DNA of 64,000 nucleotides from Coriobacteriia bacterium (GTDB lineage: Bacteria; Actinomycetota; Coriobacteriia; Anaerosomatales; Anaerosomataceae): positions 1 to 64,000 of the forward strand of contig JAFGVD010000044.1 of NCBI GenBank assembly GCA_016938135.1. Reading direction: 5' to 3'. The position numbers and the translations under genes were made by a program. The first letter of the stretch is position 1; each line of letters opens with the position of its first letter. Below are positions 23,288 through 53,885 of this stretch, in pieces. Below the pieces are notes generated by a model that did no database searches, had not been told where the DNA came from, and saw only the letters and a list, made by a program, of their open reading frames with translations.

Positions 23288-24287
23288 TGCGCTTCACCCA
23301 CCCGAAAACACGTGGCCTGAACACACGGTCCAGCAGAGGTGCGATACCGTTCATGAACAGGATCGCAAAGGTGGTCGCCTCGGGCATCGAACCGTAGAAA
23401 CGGCCCACCGCGTTGAGTACTCCACAACCGATACCGTAGGCAAGCCGGGCGTTCTTCGCCATAGGCGATGAGACGTAGTCTGTAGCCATGAAAAAGGCTC
23501 CCAGCAAAACGCCACCGGCGATGATGTTGAATATGGGATCAGAGCCGAAGGCCCACGAAAGCAGACCCATGGCGCCTATGTAGCCCGCAGGGATCCGCCA
23601 GTCGATGATGCCTTTGAACAGCAAGACCATACCGCCCAGTATGAGCAGCGCTGCAGACACCTCGCCAAGAGAGCCCTCCAGGTTGCGCCACAGCAATGGC
23701 TGGTACTGCGCAGCAAGGTCAAAACCGTATGCTCCCCCGGCGGCCCTGTCAGCCGCCGCAACAGCCAGTCGGGTAGCACCTGTTATGGCGTCATATCCAC
23801 CGGTAGCTGCGATATCAAGGGTCTTAAACCAGCCCCTGCCCGGAGCGGAGGCCATGACTCCCGCCCATGAGACCAGAACGAAGGCTCGCCCCACGAGAGC
23901 GGGGTTGAACAGGTTGAAGCCAAGACCGCCGAATATCATCTTGCCCAGGGCTATGGCGATGAAGCCGGCCGCTACCGTGATCCACCAGGGTGTCATCGGC
24001 GGCATGCTCATCGCCAGCAGAACACCGGTCACAAGAGCGCTGCCGTCAGTGAGCGTCTGACGCTTCTTGGCTATCGCATTCCATGCACCCTCGGTGATGA
24101 GCGTTGAGCCCGCTGCGAGCGCGAACATGCGGATCGCGGGCAGGCCCATGCTGATGCATGCCCAGACCGCTGCCGGGGCGAGCGCGATGACCACCCAGAG
24201 CATGATCCCGCTGCACGTCGTGGTCGATGAGATCTGAGGCGAGCCGGTAACGACCGGCTTGCGTTCTGCTGTCATCTCAGGACTCAC
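23280..24287 (-). CDS. rnfD: Rnf complex subunit D (covalent FMN, membrane)
   Basis: This 335-residue subunit has about nine hydrophobic segments and belongs to the RnfD/NqrB family, which carries a covalent FMN and is part of the ion path. The likely flavinylation site is the threonine in DAITGATRLA. I choose the GTG at 24287, which overlaps the rnfC stop as GTGA and follows GGGGG by seven bases; the ATG at 24275 is the alternative. Confidence 0.93.
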   Translation of the reverse strand: MSPEMTAERKPVVTGSPQISSTTTCSGIMLWVVIALAPAAVWACISMGLPAIRMFALAAGSTLITEGAWNAIAKKRQTLTDGSALVTGVLLAMSMPPMTPWWITVAAGFIAIALGKMIFGGLGFNLFNPALVGRAFVLVSWAGVMASAPGRGWFKTLDIAATGGYDAITGATRLAVAAADRAAGGAYGFDLAAQYQPLLWRNLEGSLGEVSAALLILGGMVLLFKGIIDWRIPAGYIGAMGLLSWAFGSDPIFNIIAGGVLLGAFFMATDYVSSPMAKNARLAYGIGCGVLNAVGRFYGSMPEATTFAILFMNGIAPLLDRVFRPRVFGWVKRNG

Positions 24288-25588
24288 GGCTTCACCCCCT
24301 TTGTAAGTGCGGCAGCCTTGGCAATGCGGATCAGCTGCACCAGCGGACGCTTGGTCGGGCACACGAAGGAACAACAACCGCACTCGATACAGTCGAGCGG
24401 GTTGAAGCGACCGGCCCCATTCCAGTCCTGACGGGCCGAGTAGTTGCCGATCGCATAGGGCTGCAGAAACATCGGGCACGCCTCGGAACAACGACCACAC
24501 CGGATACACGCCTGGTCGTCCTCCACCAGGGGCGACGCCTCCTGCGGCGTCAGGACGACGATGCCTGATGTCCCCTTGGCGACCGGAACGTCCAAAGACG
24601 CCAACGCCGGACCGGTCATTGGGCCACCGGCTATGATCCTGCCGACCTCACCGACGGTACCGCCCGCATGCTCTATCAGGTCGGAGATAAGCGTGCCGAG
24701 AAGCACCCGGTAGTTGCCCGGACGCTTCACAGCTCCCGTTACGGTCACGATGCGCTCCGTGAGCGGCTTGCCCGTATCGATGGCGTCGGCGATAGCTGCC
24801 GCTGTGGCCACGTTGTGCACAAGCGCACCCGTCGCCGCAGGCAGCTTGCCGTGCGGGACCTCTTTGGCAAGGATCGCCCATATGAGCTGCTTCTCTGCAC
24901 CTTGAGGGTATCTGGTGGGCAGCGCCCGCACCTCAACGGTCCCGGGAGCGGCAGCACGCAGCGCCTCGATAGCGTCTTGCTTGTTGTCTTCCACGCAGAT
25001 GACGATTCGAGAGGCACCGATCAGCTCGGCGATCTTCTGAGCGCCATCGATGACTCGCGACGGAGTCTCCAGCATCAGCCTGTGGTCGCACGTGAGAAAG
25101 GGCTCACACTCACAGCCGTTGAGTATGACCGTGTTGACGGGTGTATCAGCCGGAGGAGACAGTTTCACGGTGGTAGGGAACGTGGCGCCGCCCATACCCA
25201 CGACCCCGGCTGCGCGAACTGCAGACTTGGGGTCGTCGGCCTCGACACGGAGGAAAGACCCGAGGTCTTGCTCCGCATCGGGCTTGATGGTCACCGCGGT
25301 CACGCGTGACCCCGCCGCGGTAAGGCAGGGAGCGATTGCGGTCACTTCACCATCGACAGGACTGTGCACGGGTGCACTCACGAAGGCGTCTACCGAGCCG
25401 ATGACTTCACCCCGGCTCACATGCTGGCCCACTTCCACGATCGGAGCGCACGGCGCGCCGAGGTGCTGGCTCATCGGTAGAACGAGCCGCGACGGAACCG
25501 GCATCCATTCGACTGGACTGCCGGCAGTAGCCGCCTTACGATCCGGCGGATGGATACCGCCCTTAAACGCGCCCTTCGCCAAATCCAC
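24284..25588 (-). CDS. rnfC: Rnf complex subunit C (NADH-binding)
   Basis: This cytoplasmic subunit passes electrons to NAD+. The 434-residue protein has an N-terminal RnfC barrel domain (about 5-110), a Rossmann-like NADH/FMN domain (about 115-290, GMGGATFPTTVKLSPP), an SLBB-type segment, and two [4Fe-4S] motifs near residues 365 and 405 (CIRCGRCSEACP, CIECGCCSFVCP). It is the first gene of the rnf operon and stands directly downstream of the hydrogenase terminator. Confidence 0.94.
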   Translation of the reverse strand: MDLAKGAFKGGIHPPDRKAATAGSPVEWMPVPSRLVLPMSQHLGAPCAPIVEVGQHVSRGEVIGSVDAFVSAPVHSPVDGEVTAIAPCLTAAGSRVTAVTIKPDAEQDLGSFLRVEADDPKSAVRAAGVVGMGGATFPTTVKLSPPADTPVNTVILNGCECEPFLTCDHRLMLETPSRVIDGAQKIAELIGASRIVICVEDNKQDAIEALRAAAPGTVEVRALPTRYPQGAEKQLIWAILAKEVPHGKLPAATGALVHNVATAAAIADAIDTGKPLTERIVTVTGAVKRPGNYRVLLGTLISDLIEHAGGTVGEVGRIIAGGPMTGPALASLDVPVAKGTSGIVVLTPQEASPLVEDDQACIRCGRCSEACPMFLQPYAIGNYSARQDWNGAGRFNPLDCIECGCCSFVCPTKRPLVQLIRIAKAAALTKGVKP

Positions 25589-25651
25589 TACCCCCTATCA
25601 CCGGACCGGACCATCGGTCAGACTCACTTCGTCGATTCGACGTCCGTTCCT

Positions 25652-25688
25652 GCAAACACGAACGCCGCCGTCCGTGAACGGCGGCGTT
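25652..25688 (-). terminator. Terminator between hydA and rnfC
   Basis: AACGCCGCCG (25661-25670) and CGGCGGCGTT (25679-25688) form a perfect 10-bp stem with an 8-base loop. On the minus strand CGTGTTTGC follows. It is 14 bp past the hydA stop. The T tract is short, so termination may be partial and rnf could be co-transcribed. Confidence 0.65.
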
Positions 25689-25702
25689 GTGACGGTCAAC
25701 GG

Positions 25703-26965
25703 TCAGTGTACCGAGCAAGACAAGCAGAGGTCGTATGCACGAACCAGTTCCTCCACTTGAAGGATGAACTCGTCATGCGGCAAACCCGCCACAGTCGGTG
25801 CGAATGCCCGCATGTCAGCGTCGAGGTTCCCGAGATTCTGAGCCGTTGGAGTGATGATGTCTCCAGACAGCACGAACCCGTCATCATCAAGCGTGTAGCT
25901 GTGATACACGGTACCCCGGGGAGCCTCCGTGGCTCCAACGCCGAATCCTGCCCTCACCTCGTACTTGACCGGGGTACTGGTCCCACCCTCAGCGACAAGA
26001 CGGTCGCAGTACACCGCGCAACGCTCACAGGCATCGATCAACTCGATCGCCTGGCACACGTTGTTCAAGAAGGTGTTCTTCCCGACTGCACCCGTGCTAA
26101 GAGACGCAAGCGCCTCCGCGGCACGCGGCATGAGCTGTTTGCCCGACAGATTGACCCGGGCGATCGCTCCTGTCATGAACGAGCGACCATCAGACGTGCT
26201 GTGCTTGGCGTTGCTGTGACCCACGACCTGCTCATCGATGAAGGCACGGTACTCTTGGACCGGGCGGTTCCACCCGGCCTCAAGCGCTGCGGTGTTGCCG
26301 TCATAGACCGCATACTCCTCGGTGTCAGCCAACGCCAGCATTTCACACGATGAGGCGAACTCCGGGACATCGAACGAGTCGAACAACTGCGCTGTCACAA
26401 CTGCATCGTCCACGAGCGCGAGCAGTCTGTCGCGGAAGGCTTCAAGCTCGTCAGCACCCGGCTCATGTGTGAACCCGCCAACAACAGCCGTCACCGGATG
26501 AACCGGACGCCCTCCAACGAGAGTGCAAAGCTCGTTGCCCGCCTTCTTGATCTTCAGTGCCCGCTCAAGGACATCGGGATGCGTTTCTGCCAGGGGAAAC
26601 ACGCTCGGCAGACCGAGAAAGTCCGGTGCCGAGAAGATATAGAGATGCGTGGCATGGTTCTGCAGATAGGATCCGTATACGAGCAGCTTGCGAAGCAGCT
26701 TGGTGCGCTCGCTAACCTGAATGCCCAACGCGTCCTCGATCGCTTTCAGCGACGTCACCGCATGGTTGGGCGAACAGATGCCACAGATGCGACTGGTGAC
26801 AAGCGAGACCTCATCGAACCGGCGGCCAACGACCATCGGCTCAAAAAAGCGAGCAGGCTCGATGATCTCCATGTGGACGTCTTTGACTGTCGAACCTTCA
26901 AGCTCGACGTGGATCGTCCCATGACCTTCGATACGCGCAACGTGTTCTACGGTGATGATGCTCAT
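25703..26965 (-). CDS. hydA: Group 3b-like [NiFe] hydrogenase large (alpha) subunit
   Basis: This subunit carries the NiFe(CN)2CO site of a soluble, probably NAD(P)-linked hydrogenase. The 420-residue protein has the L1/L2 motif RICGICSPNH near residue 61 and the C-terminal motif DLCLSCSVH. The stop codon follows this last histidine directly, so the precursor lacks the C-terminal peptide that a maturation endopeptidase normally removes. The four-gene order beta-gamma-delta-alpha matches the archaeal HydBGDA (sulfhydrogenase) arrangement. The ATG overlaps hydD by 4 bp. Confidence 0.9.
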   Translation of the reverse strand: MSIITVEHVARIEGHGTIHVELEGSTVKDVHMEIIEPARFFEPMVVGRRFDEVSLVTSRICGICSPNHAVTSLKAIEDALGIQVSERTKLLRKLLVYGSYLQNHATHLYIFSAPDFLGLPSVFPLAETHPDVLERALKIKKAGNELCTLVGGRPVHPVTAVVGGFTHEPGADELEAFRDRLLALVDDAVVTAQLFDSFDVPEFASSCEMLALADTEEYAVYDGNTAALEAGWNRPVQEYRAFIDEQVVGHSNAKHSTSDGRSFMTGAIARVNLSGKQLMPRAAEALASLSTGAVGKNTFLNNVCQAIELIDACERCAVYCDRLVAEGGTSTPVKYEVRAGFGVGATEAPRGTVYHSYTLDDDGFVLSGDIITPTAQNLGNLDADMRAFAPTVAGLPHDEFILQVEELVRAYDLCLSCSVH

Positions 26966-27705
26966 CGGACGCCCTCCCGGACCGCGTTGTACAGATCGAA
27001 GCGACGATCCAATTCGTTCGGATCGAATCCTTTGCTGGCAAGCACTTTGCGAGCCGCATCGAAATTGGCGTCAGGAGCCAGTCCACGACATCCGGTGCAA
27101 GGACGACCGAGACTCGGGCACTTCGCCCCACAACCCGTCCGCGTCACAAGTCCAAGACAGATCTCGCCGCGGTCAAGCAGGCAGACATTCTCCTTGGTCT
27201 TGCACACCGCACACATCGGATCGCCCGGCAGCGGGTCCGCAAGACCCTGAAGCGCTTTTGACAGGACGGCAAGGAACTCATCGGTGTCGATGGGACAACC
27301 CGGGACCTGATAATCGACGTCGATCACAGAGTGAACCGGGCCCGGTGCACACCGCCCCCGTGCGACATCGGATCCCTCCCCGTACACAGCGCTGTAGGCT
27401 GCATCGAGGTCACAGCGGTTCGCGAGCGCAGGAATACCGCCCGTGTGGGCGCATGTCCCGATCGTCATGACGACCGAAGCCGTCTTTCTCAGTCGCTTCA
27501 GCAGCTCGACGTGCTCCAGGGTGGTGACAGCACCTTCTACTACCGCGATGTCGTACTCAGCGGGCATGTGCCCGGACGATGCGAGCTGCCAATACCCGAG
27601 GTCGATCACATCCAGCATCTCCAGCAGGTGATCTTCGATGTTGGTTATCTGGACCTGGCAGCCAAAATCACTGGCGAGACCTACAACCACTACACGAGGC
27701 GCCAA
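26962..27705 (-). CDS. hydD: Group 3b-like [NiFe] hydrogenase small (delta) subunit
   Basis: This 247-residue electron-transfer subunit carries Fe-S clusters next to the NiFe site. The usual first proximal-cluster motif CxxC reads S-D-F-G-C here (GLASDFGCQVQ), so the first cysteine is an aspartate. The remaining cysteines are present: GTCAHTGG, VPGCP, then CAVCKTKENVC and CGAKCPSLGRPCTGC for the other clusters. The start is a TTG at 27705, directly after the hydG stop and eight bases after AGGAGG. Confidence 0.88.
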   Translation of the reverse strand: MAPRVVVVGLASDFGCQVQITNIEDHLLEMLDVIDLGYWQLASSGHMPAEYDIAVVEGAVTTLEHVELLKRLRKTASVVMTIGTCAHTGGIPALANRCDLDAAYSAVYGEGSDVARGRCAPGPVHSVIDVDYQVPGCPIDTDEFLAVLSKALQGLADPLPGDPMCAVCKTKENVCLLDRGEICLGLVTRTGCGAKCPSLGRPCTGCRGLAPDANFDAARKVLASKGFDPNELDRRFDLYNAVREGVR

Positions 27706-28572
27706 CTATATCGCCTCCTGTAGGTTCATAGCTTCCCAATAACTGAACACCGGACCATCGATACATGCGTACTGGTGACCCACGCCGCAATGACCGCACT
27801 TTCCGATGCCGCACTTCATCCTTCGCTCGAATGACATGTAGATCTTGTCGACATCCATGTTCTTCTTGCGCATCTCTTCGATCACGTACTTGTACATGAC
27901 CGGGGGTCCGCAGATGGCACCGTAAGTACAATCAGGATCGACGTCGACCTGATCGAACAGCTTGGTCACGACTCCGACCGGACCGTCCCATGTGTCATCA
28001 GACTCATCAACGGTCAGCATCAAGTCAAAATCCTCCCGATGCTTCCACATATCGAACTGATGGCGGAAGAGCACCTCACCCGGGTTCTTCGCTCCATACA
28101 TGATCGTGACTTTTCCGAATTCATGTCGCTCATCGTGAATGTGATTGATCAAGGACTTAAGCGGTGCGATCCCTAACCCGCCGGCGACCAGCAGAATATC
28201 GTTGCCCTTCATCTGCTCGAACGGAAAACCGCGTCCAAGCGGGCCACGAAGACCAACGATATCTCCGCACTGCTTCTTATGAAGAGCACCTGTCACATCG
28301 CCTGTGTTACGAACACACAGCTCGATGAAGCCCTGCTTGCTGGGAGCCGACGAAATCGAGATCGGAGCCTCGCCCACACCGAATATGGATATCTCAGCGA
28401 ACTGACCGGCGTGGAACTTGAAAGCCTCCCTTACCTCAGGGTCGATCAGACGGAGTTCGAAGAGCTTCTCTTTCTCCGTGAGATCTTGGATGGAGGTGAT
28501 CCTGGCCGGCCAGGGACGATAGGCATTGCCCACACCGTCGCACGCGCACTCATCCACACGTATGTCATTCAT
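27706..28572 (-). CDS. hydG: Hydrogenase gamma subunit, FAD/NAD(P)-binding oxidoreductase
   Basis: This 288-residue protein of the ferredoxin-NADP reductase superfamily links the hydrogenase to NAD(P). It has an FAD-binding barrel (about 20-110, FKFHAGQFAEISIFG), a nucleotide-binding domain (about 115-235, LLVAGGLGIAPLKSLI) and a C-terminal [2Fe-2S] motif CGIGKCGHCGVGHQYAC. It overlaps hydB by 4 bp. The sequence resembles HydG of Pyrococcus and the AsrB-type sulfite reductase subunit. Confidence 0.9.
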   Translation of the reverse strand: MNDIRVDECACDGVGNAYRPWPARITSIQDLTEKEKLFELRLIDPEVREAFKFHAGQFAEISIFGVGEAPISISSAPSKQGFIELCVRNTGDVTGALHKKQCGDIVGLRGPLGRGFPFEQMKGNDILLVAGGLGIAPLKSLINHIHDERHEFGKVTIMYGAKNPGEVLFRHQFDMWKHREDFDLMLTVDESDDTWDGPVGVVTKLFDQVDVDPDCTYGAICGPPVMYKYVIEEMRKKNMDVDKIYMSFERRMKCGIGKCGHCGVGHQYACIDGPVFSYWEAMNLQEAI

Positions 28573-29591
28573 CGAGACCCCCCAGCCTGCAGCGCTTCAA
28601 TGACCTTGACGGGGCTGATCCCGGATGGACAAGCAAGCGTACAACGCCCACATCCGACACAAAGGACCCGCTCAAACTTGGACAGATAGCCCCAGTACTT
28701 GTGGTAGTAGCGGTACTTCAGGCGGCTCGAGCGGTCCTCTCGGAAGTTCTGTCCATGTGCTACAGCGGCGAATTCCTTGAACTGACAAGAGTCCCAGGTG
28801 CGGACGCGAGCGCCTGACTTCTGATCGACCTCGAGTCTGTCCTTGACGTCGAAGCAGTAGCAGGTCGGGCACACCATCGAGCACGCCCCGCATGACAAGC
28901 ACTCGCTGCCGAAGTCGTCCCACACGGGACTATCGAACTTGGCATCGAGCAACACCGGCAGCTGCGCAGTGTCCACATTGTTCGAGAAGCCCTGCTTGAA
29001 CTCATGCACGACCTGCTGGAAATCGGCTGTGTCCTTCTCGGTCACGGCCCGGCTGTCCACGTGCCTGTCCAGGACCTCCGCCCCTTTGACCGTTCGTAGC
29101 GACGCGTAGTAGCGATCGCCAAGATCGGTGAGGAAGATATCAAAGCCCCAATGGACCTCGTCGGTGTCCCACACGTTGCAGAAGCACGTCGGCGAAGGCG
29201 TGCATGACATTCCCACGATCAGCGTGTTATCCCGACGGGCCTTGTAGTACGGATCGACGTGGCCCTGCAAGAAAACGTTGTCCAGCAGCAACAGCGAATT
29301 GATGTCACACGGATGCAAGCCGAACAGGACACGCGGAGACGCAACCACGGTATCATCGGTGACTTCTTCATCGGCACAATTGAAGTGCATCATCGTCTCC
29401 TCCGGTGGCATGAGCCACTTCTTCGGAGGAAGGAGCGTCGTATCATAGTCCAGACGGATCTGCGAAGGATCCGAGATAGGCGCGAAGACGAATCGGCCAT
29501 CCTTCTCGATCGGTCCGATGACCTCATGGTCGGACGATAGTCCGGCGATGAGATCCGGCAGGCGCTCCTTATCCACTACACGAAAGAACAT
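28569..29591 (-). CDS. hydB: Hydrogenase beta subunit, 4Fe-4S dicluster protein
   Basis: This 340-residue protein of the HydB/AsrA type carries two [4Fe-4S] clusters between the FAD subunit and the hydrogenase small subunit. The motifs are CLSCGACSMVCPTCYC near residue 225 and CVGCGRCTLACPSG near residue 310. The N-terminal region contains LFGLHPCDINSLLLLD and the MSCTPSPTCFC segment. It is the first gene of the hydBGDA operon. Confidence 0.88.
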   Translation of the reverse strand: MFFRVVDKERLPDLIAGLSSDHEVIGPIEKDGRFVFAPISDPSQIRLDYDTTLLPPKKWLMPPEETMMHFNCADEEVTDDTVVASPRVLFGLHPCDINSLLLLDNVFLQGHVDPYYKARRDNTLIVGMSCTPSPTCFCNVWDTDEVHWGFDIFLTDLGDRYYASLRTVKGAEVLDRHVDSRAVTEKDTADFQQVVHEFKQGFSNNVDTAQLPVLLDAKFDSPVWDDFGSECLSCGACSMVCPTCYCFDVKDRLEVDQKSGARVRTWDSCQFKEFAAVAHGQNFREDRSSRLKYRYYHKYWGYLSKFERVLCVGCGRCTLACPSGISPVKVIEALQAGGSR

Positions 29592-34350: not shown

Positions 34351-34426
34351 TGGTGCCCCCGACAGGACTCGAACCTGTGGCCTTCTGCTCCGGAGGCAGA
34401 CGCTCTATCCGCTGAGCTACGAGGGC
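34351..34426 (-). tRNA. tRNA-Arg (anticodon CCG)
   Basis: On the minus strand the 76-nt sequence folds as a tRNA. The acceptor is GCCCTCG with CGGGGGC. The D arm is GCTCAGCGGATAGAGC. The anticodon stem TCTGC/GCAGA encloses loop CTCCGGA with anticodon CCG. The T arm is built on GGTTCGAGTCC. A genomic CCA end is present at 34353-34351. Confidence 0.96.
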
Positions 34427-44611: not shown

Positions 44612-47600
44612 CTACAGCTCGTTCTTGATGTACTCCAGCATCTTGGGAACAAGATCCGGGATGACCAAGGGAAGCATGTTCGGCAGCAGCGCATCCATCG
44701 TCTTGGGGAGCAGATCAGGCATGAGCTCCTCCATGTCCTCAGGCAGCGGACCCACCCTGCGCGAGACCTCTGCAAGCATCGCAGGCATCACCTGCGGCAT
44801 CATCGATGGCATCATCTTGGGCATCATCGATGGCATCATCTTGCCCATCATCGCAAGACCGCCCGGGATCGTGCGTGCAACCTTCATCATGGGGACCATG
44901 CCACCGGGCATAGCCTTCATCATCTCCGGCAACAGCGTGACCATGATGTCGGCGATCGACTCCGGCTTCATCAACCAGATGAACTTCTCGAAATAGCCCC
45001 ACAGCTCGTTCGCGTACGCGGTCGGATCCGGATGTGCTATACCGAGTCCGTCCATCGCAAGGTGAGCCAGATCGACTACCTCCATGGGGATGTCTTTCTT
45101 CGCGACAGAGTCACGGAACTGCACCTGACAGCAAGGGCAGAGTGCCACCATCGCGTCGGCCTCGACAGCTACAGCCTCGTCAAGCCTCATCTTGCCAAGC
45201 TCAGGCGCGACCGGTGTATCACCGATCAGGGTCAGAACCGAACCACAGCACAACGCTTCCTCATGATTGTGCTCCATCTCCACGAACTCGACGCCGGGAA
45301 TGGCTTTGATGATGTCTCTTGGCGGCTCGTAATTGCCCTGTGCGCGACCCATGTGGCACGAGTCGTGGAACGTAAGCTTCTTGTTGACCTCGTGGTCGAA
45401 CTCCAGCGTGCCGTCTGCGATAGCGTCGGCTACAAGCTCCGAGTAGTGCTTGACCTCGAACTCGTACTCCTCGCCACGCTCAGCGGCAAGATTGGCGTAG
45501 AGCTCCTTCCATACAAGCCCGCAGGCCGGGCACGAAGTCACGATCGTCTTCGCACCACGCTTGCGCGCCTCAGCGGTATTGTGCTCGTAGATCTCCTCGA
45601 AGACATCCCACTTGCCGGCGACCTTCATGGGAATGCCGCAGCAAGCCTCGTCCTCACCCATGTAGTTGAACTTCACACCCGCACGGTCGAGCAACTCGAC
45701 CGATGCTTGCGCCACATCGGTGTTGACCAGACTGGCGGTGCATCCTGCGAAGTAGAGGATGTCGGAGGACTCATCGATCTTGGGCTTGATGTGCTCGGGC
45801 ACCCAGTCAGCGCGCTTCTCCTTCTTGGAGGCCCAGATGTTCAGCTCGCCCCGGAGAGATGCGGCCATCATCTCGAAGGGCGGGAACGTCATGCGCTTCT
45901 CATCATGGATCAGCTTCCCGCGCATGGCCATCCAGGAGTGCTCGACCGGGAGCTGAAGCTGACAACGCGAATTACACACCTCACAAGTGGTGCAGACCAG
46001 GAATGTGTCGACCATGTGCTGGTCGAACTTCTCGCGACCTTCGAGTACCTCTTTCAGGTATGCGTACTTGCCTCGTGGCGAGTGGCTCATCCATCCGCGA
46101 ACCGAGTACTCCTCGCAGGTGGGAACACAGTACCCGCACTGCGCGCATGCATATGAGTAAAACGCCACATCCGCCGGGATGCCGTTCTTGTCTTTGGTGC
46201 CGACCATGTCGCCGGTCGGAGCTTTTGCGGCATTCGCGATGGGACGGACCAGCGGTTCGAAGGCGAGGGCCATACCCATAAGCGCATTCACGGCACCCGT
46301 ACCCAGTATCTTCTTCGGGTTCATGATGCCTGCCGAATCAGTTGAGCGCTTGAAGGAATCCAGGACTTCGTACTTCTTGGCGCCCAGGACGCTCTTGGCT
46401 TCCTGACGGAAGTACAGGCCGGTGGAATATGCGCCGCCGCAATGCTCCTTGGCTATCTTGATGACCACCAGGGACAGTGCAAACGCCAGGTTGAACGCGA
46501 GCGTACGCTCGTCGTGCGGGATGAAGCCGAGCAGCACGACCTTGTCCCCTTTGCCAAGCATGCCTTCGAGCACGAATGACTGCTTGACCCGCTGGTCTAT
46601 CTCGGAGAGGACCGCGCCCAGCTCCGAAAGAGGGACGACGACCTCAGTGGGGACGATCGACGGACCGACACGCTTCAGGCGCATCGGAGCGAAGCGCTGC
46701 TCCCACTCATGCTCTGCAGCCTCGGGCTCACACTCGGTGCCGCCATTCGACTCCATGATCGCGGTCAGAGCGACGTCGATCGCTCCCCTACGCGACTCCG
46801 GATACGCGATGACGGCAAGAAAGCCCTCAGGGAACTCCGGCTCGTATCCCATGTGGGTCATCTCCCAAGGATGACCGTGGCGATGAGGGATCGTCTTCTT
46901 GAGTCGCACCGACTCCGGATTGAGAAAGGTAAGAGACCAGATGGGGAGCTTCTGAACGGAGATAGCGTTCAGTGCCGACTGCAGGTCAGCGATCGTCGGG
47001 AACGACAGGACGCGGTGCACCTCGGCCCCAAGGTCACGCAGCGCAATGGTGACTTCGGTGATGATGCCGGTGATGCCCTCGGCGTCCGCAACGAGGGTCT
47101 CAAGCTCCTCGCCGGTGAACTCGCGAATGGAAGCATCGGGAAGCATCACGCGGGCGGAGAGAACACTGTCCTTGAAGAACCCGTATTCGTAGCTGCCAAA
47201 CCCGGCACCACCCTGTGCAAGCCAACCCGCCACTGTGGAAGACGGGAGCGAGGACGGATACAGACGCAGATCAAGACCCTCTGCGTTCAGCTTCTTCTGC
47301 AAAGGCTCCCACAGAGTACCGCCCTGGACGCGAACGGTCTTGGCCTCGGCGTCTATCTCGAGGATCTTACCCATGGCGGACATGTCCGCAACGATCGCAC
47401 CAGGCAAAGGCAGAACTCCACCGTAACCCGATGTCGACATGCCTCTTGGCACTAGCGACACGTGCTCGGCCCTTGCAAGCTTGATCAACGCGAGGACTTC
47501 CTCCTCCGTCTGAGGTCTGACCACCGCTCCGGCAACGCCCGTGGGCATCAATGGCTTGACCAGCTTGGGAAGCGCACCGATATCAGCCGAGTAAAGCTTC

Positions 47601-49055: not shown

Positions 49056-49653
49056 ACTAACCCCTCCTATAGTGATTAGTCGTTCAGCCCCTGATTCCTG
49101 CCGACTGTCGCCTATATACTTCACGAAGACAGGTATATGCACCAACTCATTGAATTGTTCCACCTGATTAGCATTCCGTGCGCGCCAACGTATTGGTACA
49201 CTATGTAATCAGTGGTTTCGCGAGGGGAACCGAGGGGTTATGGGAAAACGTCGGCGCACGCCGGCCAGGACGAATACGAATATGCAGCGCATCTCTACAT
49301 CCGGCAGTCCCTGCGGGAAAGGTGCGGCATACGTCGTCACCCCATCTGACACCATCCACACTTGAGCGTCCGCTGGGGCAGGTCTGCCCCGGGAATGGTC
49401 GCCACCTAAGCGGCCTTTCTCCCCCACCATTCTTAATCAGTCCCGCGCGACATTCTCGTCGCGCCATCAACACGGTAGCCTCGGGCCCGATGCGCATCGC
49501 CGGTCACGCGCATCGGTTCCCGTTCGAGGCCATAAGAAATCGAATCGAGATCCGGAAAGGAGGAGCTAGTGTTCGATAGTCGGGCAATGGGGCCCGGCGT
49601 TCACGGTTTTCCTGCAATGTAGGTACCGTTATTACACCAAGGAGGTGTATGGC
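49056..49653. other. 598-bp intergenic region upstream of the [NiFeSe] hydrogenase operon
   Basis: No convincing long gene is present; the overlapping open frames here have no family features. The first 150 bases are AT-richer than the surroundings and hold three TGATTA elements (near 49073, 49165 and, inverted, 49205), a likely site for divergent promoters. A hairpin GGGGCA/TGCCCC lies at 49375-49390. A 17-codon leader frame lies at 49569-49622. The length suggests a regulated leader for the hydrogenase operon. Confidence 0.6.
49569..49622 (+). CDS. Possible 17-residue leader peptide before the hydrogenase operon
   Basis: The sequence AAAGGAGG (49557-49564) stands five bases before a GTG that opens a 17-codon frame (MFDSRAMGPGVHGFPAM), ending in TAG 31 bp before the hydrogenase small-subunit ATG. 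The ribosome-binding site is as good as that of the hydrogenase. It could be a translated leader or chance; no attenuator-type codon run is present. Confidence 0.3.
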   Translation: MFDSRAMGPGVHGFPAM

Positions 49654-50868
49654 ATGGCGCATGAGGGGCATAACGCGCTGCATGATCTGCTTACGGTCCG
49701 CGGCGTGACCCGTCGTGACTTCCTGAAGTACTGCGGCAGCATTGCCGCAGCACTGGGAATGTCCGAGACGATGGCACCTCAGATTGCCGCAGCCCTCGAA
49801 GGGGCACCGAAACTGATGCCCACCCTGTGGCTGAACGGTGGATCTTGCACCGGCTGTACCGAGTCCATCGCACAGGTGGACTCCCCCGACGTCGCTACGA
49901 TCGTTCTCGACTACCTCTCGACCAACTATTTCGAGACGATCATGGCTGCTGCGGGCGAGCAGGCGGAGAAGCAGATCGAGGAGACGATTGCCGAAGGCGG
50001 CTACATCGTCATCTACGAAGGATCGGTAATGACCGGCCAGGATGGCAACACCCTGCTGGTCGCTGGCAAGAAGGGCACCGAGATTCTGTCCGAGGCGGCT
50101 CGCGGAGCAGCGGCTGTCATCGCTGTGGGATCTTGTGCAGTGGACGGCGGCTGGGTCTATGGTTACCCCAACCCTGCCGAGGCAACGGGCGTCCAGGCGT
50201 GGCTGAACCACGAAGGAATCACGACTCCCGTCGTCAACCTGCCCACGTGCCCGGTCAACCCCGAGTGGATCGTCGCCATGGTCGTCCAGCTGTTGCTGGT
50301 CGCCGACCGTGACGTCGCCGCCTTCGTGGAGAAGACCGAATGGGTCACCCGTTCCTACACGGATCGCAAGTACGGCGCTGTCGACTTGCTTATGCCGAAG
50401 GGCATCTTCGGTCAGAGCATCCACGACAACTGCCCGCGTCGCGGTCACTTTGAGAACGGTGAGTTCGTTACCGAGTTCGGCAGCAAAGAAGAGGCCATGG
50501 GCTATTGCCTGTACAAGGTCGGCTGCAAGGGTCCGCAGACGTTCACCAACTGCCCTGTCGTGCGGTGGAACCGCAGGACGAGTTGGTGCGTCGAAGCTGG
50601 AAGCCCCTGCATCGGCTGCGGCGGTCTGAATTGGGTGGACAACAACTCCCCGTTCTTCCATAGGCTCGCTGACATGCAGATGGGCGATGCGCTCGGTAAC
50701 GTCCAGCCTGGTTCCGTTGGCGCAGTCGTCGGTGGCGTAGCCGCCGCGGCTCTCGTCGCACACGGCCTCGGCATGAAAGCCGCCGGCCGAGTCGGAGACG
50801 GACCTCCTATGGAGGAAATGAAGAAGTACGACCGTAAGCGTCTCGCGAAGAAGGGAGGCGATAAATAG
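49654..50868 (+). CDS. hysB: Group 1 [NiFeSe]-type hydrogenase small subunit, Tat-exported
   Basis: This 404-residue electron-transfer subunit is exported by Tat with the large subunit: the signal is TRRDFLKYCGSIAAALGMS. Proximal cluster ligands are in GGSCTGCTES, GSCAVDGG and NLPTCPVNP. The distal cluster has QSIHDNCPRRGHF, GYCLY and GCKGP. The medial site reads SWCVEAGSPCIGC: residue 312 is Cys where [NiFe] enzymes have Pro, so three [4Fe-4S] clusters are predicted, as in [NiFeSe] enzymes. A hydrophobic C-terminal helix (GSVGAVVGGVAAAALVAHGL) anchors it. The ATG at 49654 lies eight bases after AAGGAGG. Confidence 0.93.
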   Translation: MAHEGHNALHDLLTVRGVTRRDFLKYCGSIAAALGMSETMAPQIAAALEGAPKLMPTLWLNGGSCTGCTESIAQVDSPDVATIVLDYLSTNYFETIMAAAGEQAEKQIEETIAEGGYIVIYEGSVMTGQDGNTLLVAGKKGTEILSEAARGAAAVIAVGSCAVDGGWVYGYPNPAEATGVQAWLNHEGITTPVVNLPTCPVNPEWIVAMVVQLLLVADRDVAAFVEKTEWVTRSYTDRKYGAVDLLMPKGIFGQSIHDNCPRRGHFENGEFVTEFGSKEEAMGYCLYKVGCKGPQTFTNCPVVRWNRRTSWCVEAGSPCIGCGGLNWVDNNSPFFHRLADMQMGDALGNVQPGSVGAVVGGVAAAALVAHGLGMKAAGRVGDGPPMEEMKKYDRKRLAKKGGDK

Positions 50869-52535
50869 TGGCACGCGCAGTCATTGACCCGGTTACCAGA
50901 ATCGAAGGTCACCTTCGCGTTGAGTGTGAAGTCACGGATGGTGTCGTCAAAGACGCCTGGGTGTCTGGAACGCTCTACCGCGGCATGGAGACGGTCATGC
51001 TTGACCGTCAGCCTGAGGATGCCTTCTATGTAACGCAGCGCATCTGTGGCGTCTGCCCGATCTCGCACAGCCACGCGTCTTCGATGTCAACTGAAGCCGC
51101 TCTCGGCATTGAGATCCCCAACAACGCCCGCCTCATCCGCAACCTGCTTGAGGCAGCACAGTTCCTGCACAGCCACATCCTGTGGTTCTACACGCTGGCG
51201 GCTCTCGACTTCGTGAGCCCGATCAACGCCCTATCCGCGAACATCGCCGACACCTACGCTCTTGCGCAGGCTGCCGGTACGCGTGTTGCAGACTTCGGCG
51301 CGATCGCAAAGCGTCTCACGGCATTCGCCGAGAACGGCCAGCTGTCATTCCTGGGCGGTCACTACTGGGACCACCCAGGCTACGTCCTCCCGCCGGAACT
51401 CGACCTCATCGCTACCGCACACTACCTCGAGGCTCTCGAGATGCAGGCTGTGGCCAACGAAGTCGTCGCGGTCATCGGTGGCAAGTTCCCGCATCCCATG
51501 ACCTCTGTTCCTGGTGGTACGGCATTCGTGCCCACCGAACAGAAGCTGGATGACATCCTGTTCCGCTTCACGAGGCTCAAGGACTTCATCGATACGGCGC
51601 TCATCCCTGACACACTTGCGATCGCACCGTTCATTCTTGAGACCACGACATACGGCGGCGGCTGCGGTAACTTCCTGAGCTGGGGCGTCTTCGACTCCGC
51701 AGACAGGGATCCGTACAACCGCTTCCTCCCCCGTGGTTTCGTGACCGGTGGCCTGACGGCGGAAGAAGTCGGACCCGACGATGTCACCGAGTATGTTGAG
51801 CACTCATGGTACGACTCGGCTAGCGGCCTCAACCCTGCCAAGGGTGAGACCAGCGTGAACTTCGACGAGTACAACGTAGACAACAAGTACTCGTACGGCA
51901 AGGCAGCACGCTGCAAGGAGAAGCCGGCCGAGGTCGGTCCTCTTGCACGTATGGTCGCCGCCTATGTGTACGAAGCTGGCGGAAAGACACTCGTCGAGGA
52001 CACATCGGTCCGTACGCCGAAGGCGCTCATCGACCTCACGCTTGAGGCGCTGGGTGTTGCAGGCAAGCCCGAGGTTCTGGTATCTCTGCTCGGTCGTATC
52101 GCCGCACGCAACCTTGAGGCTGCATACGTTGTCGACCTCGCCCTCATGTGGGTCAACGAGCTCGTCGGCGCCATCAAGGGCGGAGACTCCTCGTACTTCA
52201 AGGCCCGCGAGTCGTTCGACGGCCAGGGTGCTGGCCTGTGGGAAGCTCCCCGCGGTTCAGTCGGTCACTGGATCGACATCAAGAACAACAAGATCCAGGG
52301 CTATCAGGTCGTTGCTCCCACAACATGGGACATCGCACCCCGCGACGCCGCCGGTGTTGCCGGCCCGATGGAGCAGGCGCTCATCGGTGCTCCGGTCTTC
52401 GATGTCGAAAGGCCTCTGGAGATGCTGCGCATAGCGCACAGCTTCGATCCTTGAATCGGTTGTGCTGTCCACGTTGTGGACACAAAGACCGGCAAGGAGA
52501 GCACTGTGATGTCTTCGCCGATGGGGGTGATGTAG
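50868..52535 (+). CDS. hysA: Group 1 [NiFeSe] hydrogenase large subunit with in-frame UGA (selenocysteine)
   Basis: This is the catalytic subunit, with 555 residues if the TGA at 52452-52454 is read as selenocysteine (residue 529). The N-terminal motif RICGVCPISHSH is intact. The C-terminal motif reads S-F-D-P-TGA-I-G-C-A-V-H: the TGA replaces the first Cys of DPCxxCxxH, and Cys532 and His535 lie beyond it. After His535 comes a 20-residue peptide, expected to be removed by the maturation protease at 53313, then TAG directly before the cytochrome b ATG. Stopping at the TGA would remove essential nickel ligands. The start GTG overlaps the small-subunit stop by one base; GGGAGG lies nine bases upstream. 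Confidence 0.92.
52452..52485 (+). promoter_or_regulatory. Bacterial SECIS-like element after the UGA of hysA
   Basis: Starting 12 bases after the TGA, GTCCAC (52467-52472) and GTGGAC (52476-52481) form a perfect 6-bp stem with loop GTT. TTGT and ACAA can extend the stem below a GCU bulge. Distance, short apical stem, GU-containing loop and a bulged U resemble the E. coli fdhF SECIS, which SelB binds. Confidence 0.7.
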
Positions 52536-53183
52536 ATGGGTTCTCACGCACACTACCGTGAGGCGCATCCACTGGTCTTCGTGATCACTCACTACATCAA
52601 CCTGATCTGCATGATCATGCTCGCGTTCTCAGGCTTCTACATCCACTTCCCGTTCTTCTCTGCCGGGTTCATGGGTGTCGCCCGAGGCATGCACTTCGTC
52701 GCGATGTACGTGATCTTGATCACCCTCGTCTTCCGCATTATCGCCGCCTTCTTCGTGAAGACCGCGACACAGCTTGGAAGCCGCGAGGTTGATACGGACA
52801 TCAAGAACTGGCTGCCGCAGGCTGAGAACAAGCATCAGCTGTTTGAGACAGTCAAGTACTATTTGTTCTTCCGCAAGGAAGGCGTCATCTCGGGCAAGTA
52901 TGGCTCGCTCCAGAAGATCGCATATCTGGCGACCATTCCGCTGACGTTCATCCAGGCCTATACCGGTTTCGCGATCTACGCCCCGTTCATGAACGCGGGC
53001 ATCTTCGCTAGCGGTATCGACATGGTTGGCGGCCCGATGAACATGCGGATCATCCACTACTTCGGTATGTGGGTGTTCATCCTGTTCACTATGGTCCACG
53101 CCTACCTCGCAAACATCTACAACTTCGCTCCGAGCAAGATCATCTTCCTGTGGAAGGAAACCCTGCCGGAGGGCAAGCACTAG
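52536..53183 (+). CDS. Hydrogenase cytochrome b subunit
   Basis: This 215-residue di-heme membrane subunit of the HyaC/HydC family passes electrons from the periplasmic hydrogenase to the quinone pool. It has four transmembrane helices and membrane histidines at HPLVFVITHYIN, ARGMHFVAMYV, RIIHYFGMW and MVHAYLANIYN. The ATG follows the hysA TAG with no gap and stands eight bases after GGGGG, which overlaps the 3' end of hysA. Confidence 0.9.
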   Translation: MGSHAHYREAHPLVFVITHYINLICMIMLAFSGFYIHFPFFSAGFMGVARGMHFVAMYVILITLVFRIIAAFFVKTATQLGSREVDTDIKNWLPQAENKHQLFETVKYYLFFRKEGVISGKYGSLQKIAYLATIPLTFIQAYTGFAIYAPFMNAGIFASGIDMVGGPMNMRIIHYFGMWVFILFTMVHAYLANIYNFAPSKIIFLWKETLPEGKH

Positions 53184-53190
53184 ATGTGAT

Positions 53191-53279
53191 CCGGTTGGAA
53201 GACCGGGCAACGAGCTCGGTCTTCCTCCGGATGACGTAGGGTCTTGGAGCTCACGCTTCAAGACCCTACGCTTTTGTCC
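53191..53279 (+). terminator. Tandem hairpins between cytochrome b and protease genes
   Basis: Two inverted repeats fill the gap. The first pairs GGAAGACCG (53197-53205) with CGGTCTTCC (53217-53225), extended by outer CCGG arms. The second pairs CGTAGGGTCTTG (53235-53246) with CAAGACCCTACG (53259-53270) and is followed by CTTTTGT. The second looks like an intrinsic terminator or attenuator, which would lower protease expression relative to the structural genes. Confidence 0.65.
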
Positions 53280-53312
53280 TTGAGTCATTTCCTACGAGAA
53301 GAAAGGCTCCTC

Positions 53313-53885
53313 ATGCCTACACCCCAACGTGTGTTGGTCCTTGGCATCGGCAATCCGCTCATGCTCGATGAAGGGATCGGCGTTCGTGTCCTGGAGGAGA
53401 TGGCCAGCCACTACACCTTCGCTGAAGGCACCGAGCTCGTTGATGCGGGCACCATGGGCCTTGGCATGATAAACATGTTCCGTGGCATCGACTTCATGCT
53501 GATCATAGATGCGATTGATGGCACCGGACATCCGGCAGGGACCGTCGTTCGCGTCTCCCCGAAAGACTTCAGCCCCAACCAGGTCTTCCACGGTCTACAT
53601 GACGTCCGTTTTGTGGACGTTCTCAATTCCGCATCGCTGATTGGGATCGAACCGGAAGCGGAATGCGTTGGCATCCAGGTTCAGGACATGAGCCCTCCAG
53701 AGCTCACAGTGGGACTGTCTGAGCCGGTCGAGGCTTCCGTGCCCCGTGCGGTCGCCGCTGCGCTCACACTCCTTGACGAGCGTGGAATCCCGTTCACTGA
53801 GATCAGCAATCCTGATTCAGAGCCGTTCTTCGAACTGGTTCGCTCGGCATACGAGGAGATGCGCGACAAGCGCCGGGATCACTAG
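53313..53885 (+). CDS. Hydrogenase maturation endopeptidase
   Basis: This 190-residue HyaD/HybD-family protease removes the C-terminal peptide of the large subunit once nickel is inserted. Nickel-probing residues are visible: GIGNPLMLDEGIGV (Asp/Glu), the IIDAIDG aspartate and the GLHDVRFVDVL histidine. The ATG at 53313 is chosen because homology begins at MPTPQRVLVLGIGN and AAAGG lies six bases upstream. Its expected substrate is the 20-residue tail after the UGA in hysA. It converges with the kinase gene, overlapping by 4 bp. Confidence 0.92.
   Translation: MPTPQRVLVLGIGNPLMLDEGIGVRVLEEMASHYTFAEGTELVDAGTMGLGMINMFRGIDFMLIIDAIDGTGHPAGTVVRVSPKDFSPNQVFHGLHDVRFVDVLNSASLIGIEPEAECVGIQVQDMSPPELTVGLSEPVEASVPRAVAAALTLLDERGIPFTEISNPDSEPFFELVRSAYEEMRDKRRDH

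Follow-up and report, generated by a model that had tools for sequence, protein, structure and literature searches.

In [NiFe] hydrogenases, the large subunit is cut behind its last His after Ni insertion and travels with a small subunit carrying a twin-arginine (Tat) signal. In bacterial selenocysteine (Sec) insertion, SelB brings Sec-tRNASec to a hairpin (SECIS) behind the UGA, which as a rule has a G within the first two loop bases; the archaeal SECIS is located in the untranslated region. HysAB, the periplasmic group 1a [NiFeSe] hydrogenase of Desulfovibrio and Desulfomicrobium, has Sec as a Ni ligand, encoded by UGA with a downstream SECIS, and in its small subunit the medial cluster has a fourth Cys. 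Sec also replaces a Ni-ligand Cys in the methanogen [NiFeSe] hydrogenases Fru and Vhu (PMC13188914), which belong to group 3 and are cofactor-linked or heterodisulfide-reductase-linked. A 2026 review restricts [NiFeSe] hydrogenases to sulfate reducers and methanogens, and a NiFeSe-type gene has been named in Nautilia (PMC2628731). HydDB (PMC5037454) lists [NiFeSe] variants for groups 1a, 3a, and 3c only and describes group 1i as the Coriobacteria-type. The cluster of two cultured strains that grow on H2, Anaerosoma tenue and Parvivirga hydrogeniphila, was assigned to group 1i (PMC9686372); both probably belong to the order of the genome studied here (Anaerosomatales, OPB41). Selenium is unmentioned in PMC9686372, which cites three accessions for four products, and our guess is that the large subunit may be missing or truncated in that record.

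The window analyzed here is a 64,000-nucleotide stretch (contig JAFGVD010000044.1, assembly GCA_016938135.1) from a Coriobacteriia bacterium. Its forward strand carries a hydrogenase operon in which Pfam and NCBIfam profiles gave the order small subunit, large subunit, cytochrome b, and maturation protease. The small subunit (49645–50868, start codon approximate; TIGR00391, TIGR01409, PF14720, and PF01058) scored 289.9 bits with TIGR00391 (cut-off, 179.5) and has a Tat signal (TIGR01409) with RRDFLKYCG and Fe-S cluster motifs, among them one that gives the medial cluster a fourth Cys (SWCVEAGSPCIGC). The b-type cytochrome subunit (52536–53183; PF01292), which scored 100 bits with TIGR02125, under the cut-off of 121.5, is predicted to be the membrane anchor and quinone-side electron carrier. 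The HyaD/HybD-type maturation protease (53244–53885; PF01750 and TIGR00072) scored 107 bits with TIGR00072, over its cut-off, and its true start is probably downstream of 53244, near MPTPQRVLVLGIGN. Elsewhere in the window, a second [NiFe] hydrogenase cluster of the Cys type with sulfhydrogenase-like subunits lies on the reverse strand (24284–29591). Its large subunit (25703–26965) ends with DLCLSCSVH and a stop, with the C-terminal propeptide absent, and RnfC-like and RnfD-like genes come after this cluster.

The large subunit ORF at 50868–52454 encodes 528 aa and is closed by a TGA (52452–52454). Read through this codon, the frame runs on over IGCAVH and a further 20 codons until a TAG at 52533–52535, which directly abuts the cytochrome b ATG (52536), giving a protein of 555 aa (50868–52535) with the C-terminus SFDP-U-IGCAVHVVDTKTGKESTVMSSPMGVM. 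The initial annotation had given the same frame, TGA position, residue number (Sec529), and 20 codons to a TAG touching the cytochrome b ATG, and all of these were correct. PF00374 scored 511.9 bits over residues 38–535 (cut-off, 25.8). Both CxxC motifs were present, one of them with Sec: the N-terminal RICGVC (Cys60 and Cys63) and the C-terminal DPUIGCAVH. Cys60, Cys63, Sec529, and Cys532 are the predicted Ni ligands. Group 1 large subunits in the PDB, whose structures already define the fold, aligned through the C-terminal end of the readthrough protein (1h2a, E 1e-121), indicating that the TGA occupies exactly the first Cys of DPCxxCxxH in solved structures. The mature PDB chains stop at the His homologous to His535, and by this family precedent the last 20 residues (VVDTKTGKESTVMSSPMGVM, 52473–52532) would be a propeptide removed after His535 by the maturation protease. 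The last propeptide codons contain GGGGGTGA, a likely ribosome-binding site of the cytochrome b gene; this may be why GV is kept at the C-terminus. The peptide past the TGA was visibly conserved (VHV.E..TGK). Its pN/pS was 0.47 after the TGA and 0.60 beyond the hairpin described below, compared with 0.36 before the TGA and 0.75 in the untranslated frame that follows the true stop; the value after the TGA is only moderately under that of the untranslated frame and is too weak as a main argument.

Homologues of the large subunit occur throughout Coriobacteriia. In the family of the window's genome, 26 of 27 genomes encode the enzyme, each with a single in-frame TGA located at codon 529. Among 398 genomes sampled from the class, TGA was found at this codon in 34 further genomes of the order and in eight from three other families (f17, f20, and f21), and other families, e.g., f19, f25, and f28, had TGC or TGT; the in-frame UGA thus sits where homologues have Cys. 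The TGA-bearing homologues ranged from a 92% identical protein in the same genus to 55–79% identity in other families of the class. In 396 genomes sampled from the phylum, relatives from f46, f48, and f54 had TGA with the motif DPU[IM]AC[AS]VH, and in f34 and f60 relatives TGA was indicated by the stop count only. The initial annotation had named a Cys codon or a true stop at this position as evidence against Sec; instead, independent assemblies from the same genus to other families share the exact codon, indicating that the TGA is neither chance nor sequencing error. Mapped onto a tree built from 107 large subunits, the residue (Sec or Cys) changed only three times, compared with 27.7 times in shuffles. 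One enzyme on a long branch within the Sec clade (L105 of G055) has Cys (TGC) in the motif DPCVGCSIH and is probably a Sec-to-Cys reversion. In three genomes (G017, G026, and G126), a Sec enzyme coexists with a Cys enzyme. The extra medial-cluster Cys proved not to be tied to Sec, since Cys homologues carry it too. A link of Sec with Gly before the second Cys (GC versus AC) held within the class only; the phylum-level Sec enzymes have Ala there. No relative of the hydrogenase was found in the viral contigs searched.

The initial annotation had made its Sec reading depend on sel genes, and selA, selB, selC (tRNASec), and selD were all present in the window's genome (99% complete), clustered as selD–selA–selB–tRNASec. 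Both Rfam and ARAGORN found the one strong tRNASec match (contig C49, 47516–47608; 65.8 bits, over the cut-off; anticodon TCA by ARAGORN) directly behind selB (45577–47448; SelB profile, 376 bits, over the cut-off), with selA ahead of selB and selD ahead of selA. selD (L064:6703–7770) itself contains an in-frame TGA where Sec is known to occur in SelD (KAGUAAKWGP), and the gene for a formate dehydrogenase alpha subunit (L168; G000:C8:39582–42428, reverse strand) has one at the canonical Sec position (ARIUHSATVQGL). The search by family thus gave at least three predicted selenoproteins, and together with the sel gene set, the TGA-bearing SelD and formate dehydrogenase indicate that this genome is equipped to decode UGA as Sec.

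SelB was detected in 55 of the 68 genomes of the class that carry the TGA hydrogenase gene. Of the 13 in which it was not found, nine carry at least one of selA, selD, and a strong tRNASec, and no sel gene was found in the other TGA-gene genomes G020, G136, G082, and G116 (MAGs, 82–96% complete). In G024, G033, and G070, SelB surfaced on re-search, its earlier apparent lack being a scoring limit. In five genomes with the TGA hydrogenase (G025, G005, G001, G023, and G110), selD was present and contains a TGA, but selA and selB were not found, and the selD neighborhood differs in some of them; in G025 (98% complete), 3.9 kb separate selD from a contig end, and both selA and selB are missing behind it. 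The tRNASec-like matches of 48–50 bits in three of these genomes (G005, G023, and G001) are weak and were left out of the evidence. Incomplete assembly is the simplest reading of the missing genes, and some of these genomes may have lost sel genes. In G039 (99% complete), a member of the same order with only the Cys enzyme, selA, selB, selD, and tRNASec were all undetected. We dropped the idea that SelB is confined to genomes with the TGA enzyme because selB also occurs in many Cys-enzyme genomes, where it presumably serves formate dehydrogenase or SelD.

Just 3′ of the UGA, we found a SECIS-type stem-loop (52456–52492; MFE −17.6 kcal/mol, z −2.1) with a core 7-bp stem (52466–52472 paired with 52476–52482) and the apical loop GUU (52473–52475). 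The hairpin starts 11–12 nt past the TGA, and its loop opens with CG or G 18–19 nt past the UGA, in line with the loop G of bacterial SECIS elements. In most relatives, bases 11–17 after the UGA pair with bases 24–30; part of the window's family, including the window's genome, has a shifted register (12–18 with 22–28), which retains the stem length and CG(U) at the top. At least six of the seven pairs formed in 74 of 75 Sec genes but in none of 32 Cys genes. Only 10.6% of synonymous recodings of Sec genes attained this, and therefore the protein code alone rarely yields the hairpin. Among 45 distinct sequences with the commoner register, 97.5% of cells paired, slid partners failed, and the covariation score was 0.229, compared with 0.056 ± 0.014 in shuffles, none of 500 of which reached it. 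This covariation signal comes from the two outer pairs, which vary on both sides (G-C, C-G, and A-U); the other five are invariant. In some of these cases, an amino acid change in one arm (Ala, Gly, or Gln at codon 533) was matched by a third-position change in the other, e.g., CCG, CCC, and CCT at codon 539. In Sec genes, codons 535 (His CAC in 75 of 75) and 536 (GTG or GTT in 74 of 75) are nearly frozen, but both are free in Cys genes. RNAalifold recovered the same hairpin unprompted. The fold-energy test alone was modest (p ≤ 0.05 in 28 of 66), and Rfam gave no match at the SECIS site, its sole match within the window being an ordinary tRNA gene (34354–34426, reverse strand). A near-identical hairpin (GCGGTTCACGTGATTGAACC) occurs in Sec hydrogenases of other actinobacterial families at 44–51% protein identity (L143 and L148–L156). 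In 11 relatives (L045–L048, L063, L065, L070, L074, L076, L083, and L088), a second TGA, without a hairpin, serves as the true stop 26–28 codons past the Sec TGA; these twin roles of TGA within one gene are a natural test of SECIS specificity.

Because of the sel genes, the deeply conserved TGA, the covarying hairpin missing from Cys homologues, and the sel-less, Cys-only relative G039, we consider it almost certain, as judged from these genomic data, that the TGA at 52452–52454 encodes Sec529, as initially proposed. Annotated in the standard way, the gene would stop after 528 aa, as expected if the TGA were a genuine premature stop, arising by pseudogene formation or sequencing error, that left the hydrogenase dead or truncated. 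Within the class, however, dozens of independent genomes share this codon, even where protein identity falls to 55%, the C-terminal extension is conserved with Cys532 and His535 retained, the hairpin covaries, and the neighboring genes are intact. A dead enzyme amid an intact four-gene operon, already disfavored in the initial annotation, is thus extremely improbable. The frame that stays open past the UGA would fit reading of the codon as Trp or Cys through a reassigned code or a suppressor tRNA, but TGA also terminates genes here, including this very gene in the 11 relatives with two TGAs. Moreover, the single TGA coincides exactly with a Ni-ligand position, the genome encodes a dedicated tRNASec together with SelA, SelB, and SelD, and Trp would not be expected to ligate Ni; we give this reading hardly any credence.

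Sec insertion is generally inefficient, and the UGA could double as a regulatory stop, Sec being inserted conditionally according to selenium supply and other hydrogenases substituting for this one. The Cys paralogues kept in G017, G026, and G126 and the Cys-type hydrogenase in the window are in keeping with such an arrangement, but the window's genome has no Cys paralogue of the Sec enzyme, and we regard conditional insertion as very unlikely. In the favored reading, SelB and Sec-tRNASec would bind the hairpin just past the UGA and insert Sec, which, as the terminal Ni ligand, would hold Ni with Cys532, Cys60, and Cys63. After Ni insertion, the neighboring protease would cut behind His535 and remove the last 20 residues, so that residues kept in the mature protein would be encoded by the 5′ arm of the hairpin, and the discarded propeptide by its loop and 3′ arm. 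The mature large and small subunits would then be exported via Tat, and electrons from H2 would pass through the Fe-S clusters and cytochrome b to the respiratory chain. The predicted enzyme is thus a Tat-exported, cytochrome-b-linked group 1 uptake hydrogenase.

The parallel with Desulfovibrio [NiFeSe] hydrogenases drawn in the initial annotation held for the Sec, which by alignment is at the same Ni-ligand position, and the two also share a UGA with a downstream SECIS and the fourth medial-cluster Cys. It did not extend to identity with HysAB: the NCBIfam models for HysA, HysB, and the NiFeSe maturase (NF045518, NF045520, and NF033181) scored 422.4/780, 226/470, and 507.2/600, all under their cut-offs, and, unlike HysAB, the window enzyme is encoded together with a membrane cytochrome b. 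Fru and Vhu share the replacement of a Ni-ligand Cys but differ in being group 3 enzymes. Occurrence in the same bacterial class and the same gene set (small subunit, large subunit, cytochrome b, and protease) point to group 1i, whose Cys homologues are 44–62% identical across the class and from which the window enzyme differs in that Sec replaces the first Cys of DPCxxCxxH; judging from the literature on relatives, the Sec hydrogenase appears to be group 1i-like. The initial annotation had regarded a Sec hydrogenase joined to a cytochrome b as an unfamiliar arrangement in actinobacteria. The linkage to cytochrome b is itself ordinary for group 1 uptake hydrogenases, and the novelty lies in Sec: searches of the open-access literature yielded no earlier description of a Sec hydrogenase from this group, and a hidden Sec hydrogenase gene in actinobacteria seems to be previously unreported.

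Predicted Sec enzymes occur in the order of the window's genome, in three of the other families in its class, and, beyond the class, in as many as five families of the phylum. As far as the gene sequences indicate, the Sec form is the rule in this order and is present in other actinobacterial lineages, not an isolated oddity. We think it likely that Sec uptake hydrogenases are old and widespread in anaerobic Actinomycetota, forming a membrane-bound [NiFeSe] branch apart from HysAB with very few Sec/Cys switches from the Cys enzymes of group 1i, and that they have escaped notice because gene annotation breaks off at the UGA. Oxygen tolerance and H2 evolution make [NiFeSe] enzymes sought after, and the present finding extends these hydrogenases to a large actinobacterial group in which they are linked to a cytochrome b. 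Since the order has two cultured H2-oxidizing members, the prediction is testable at once. A truncated annotation would hide the catalytic residue from surveys of subsurface H2 oxidizers.
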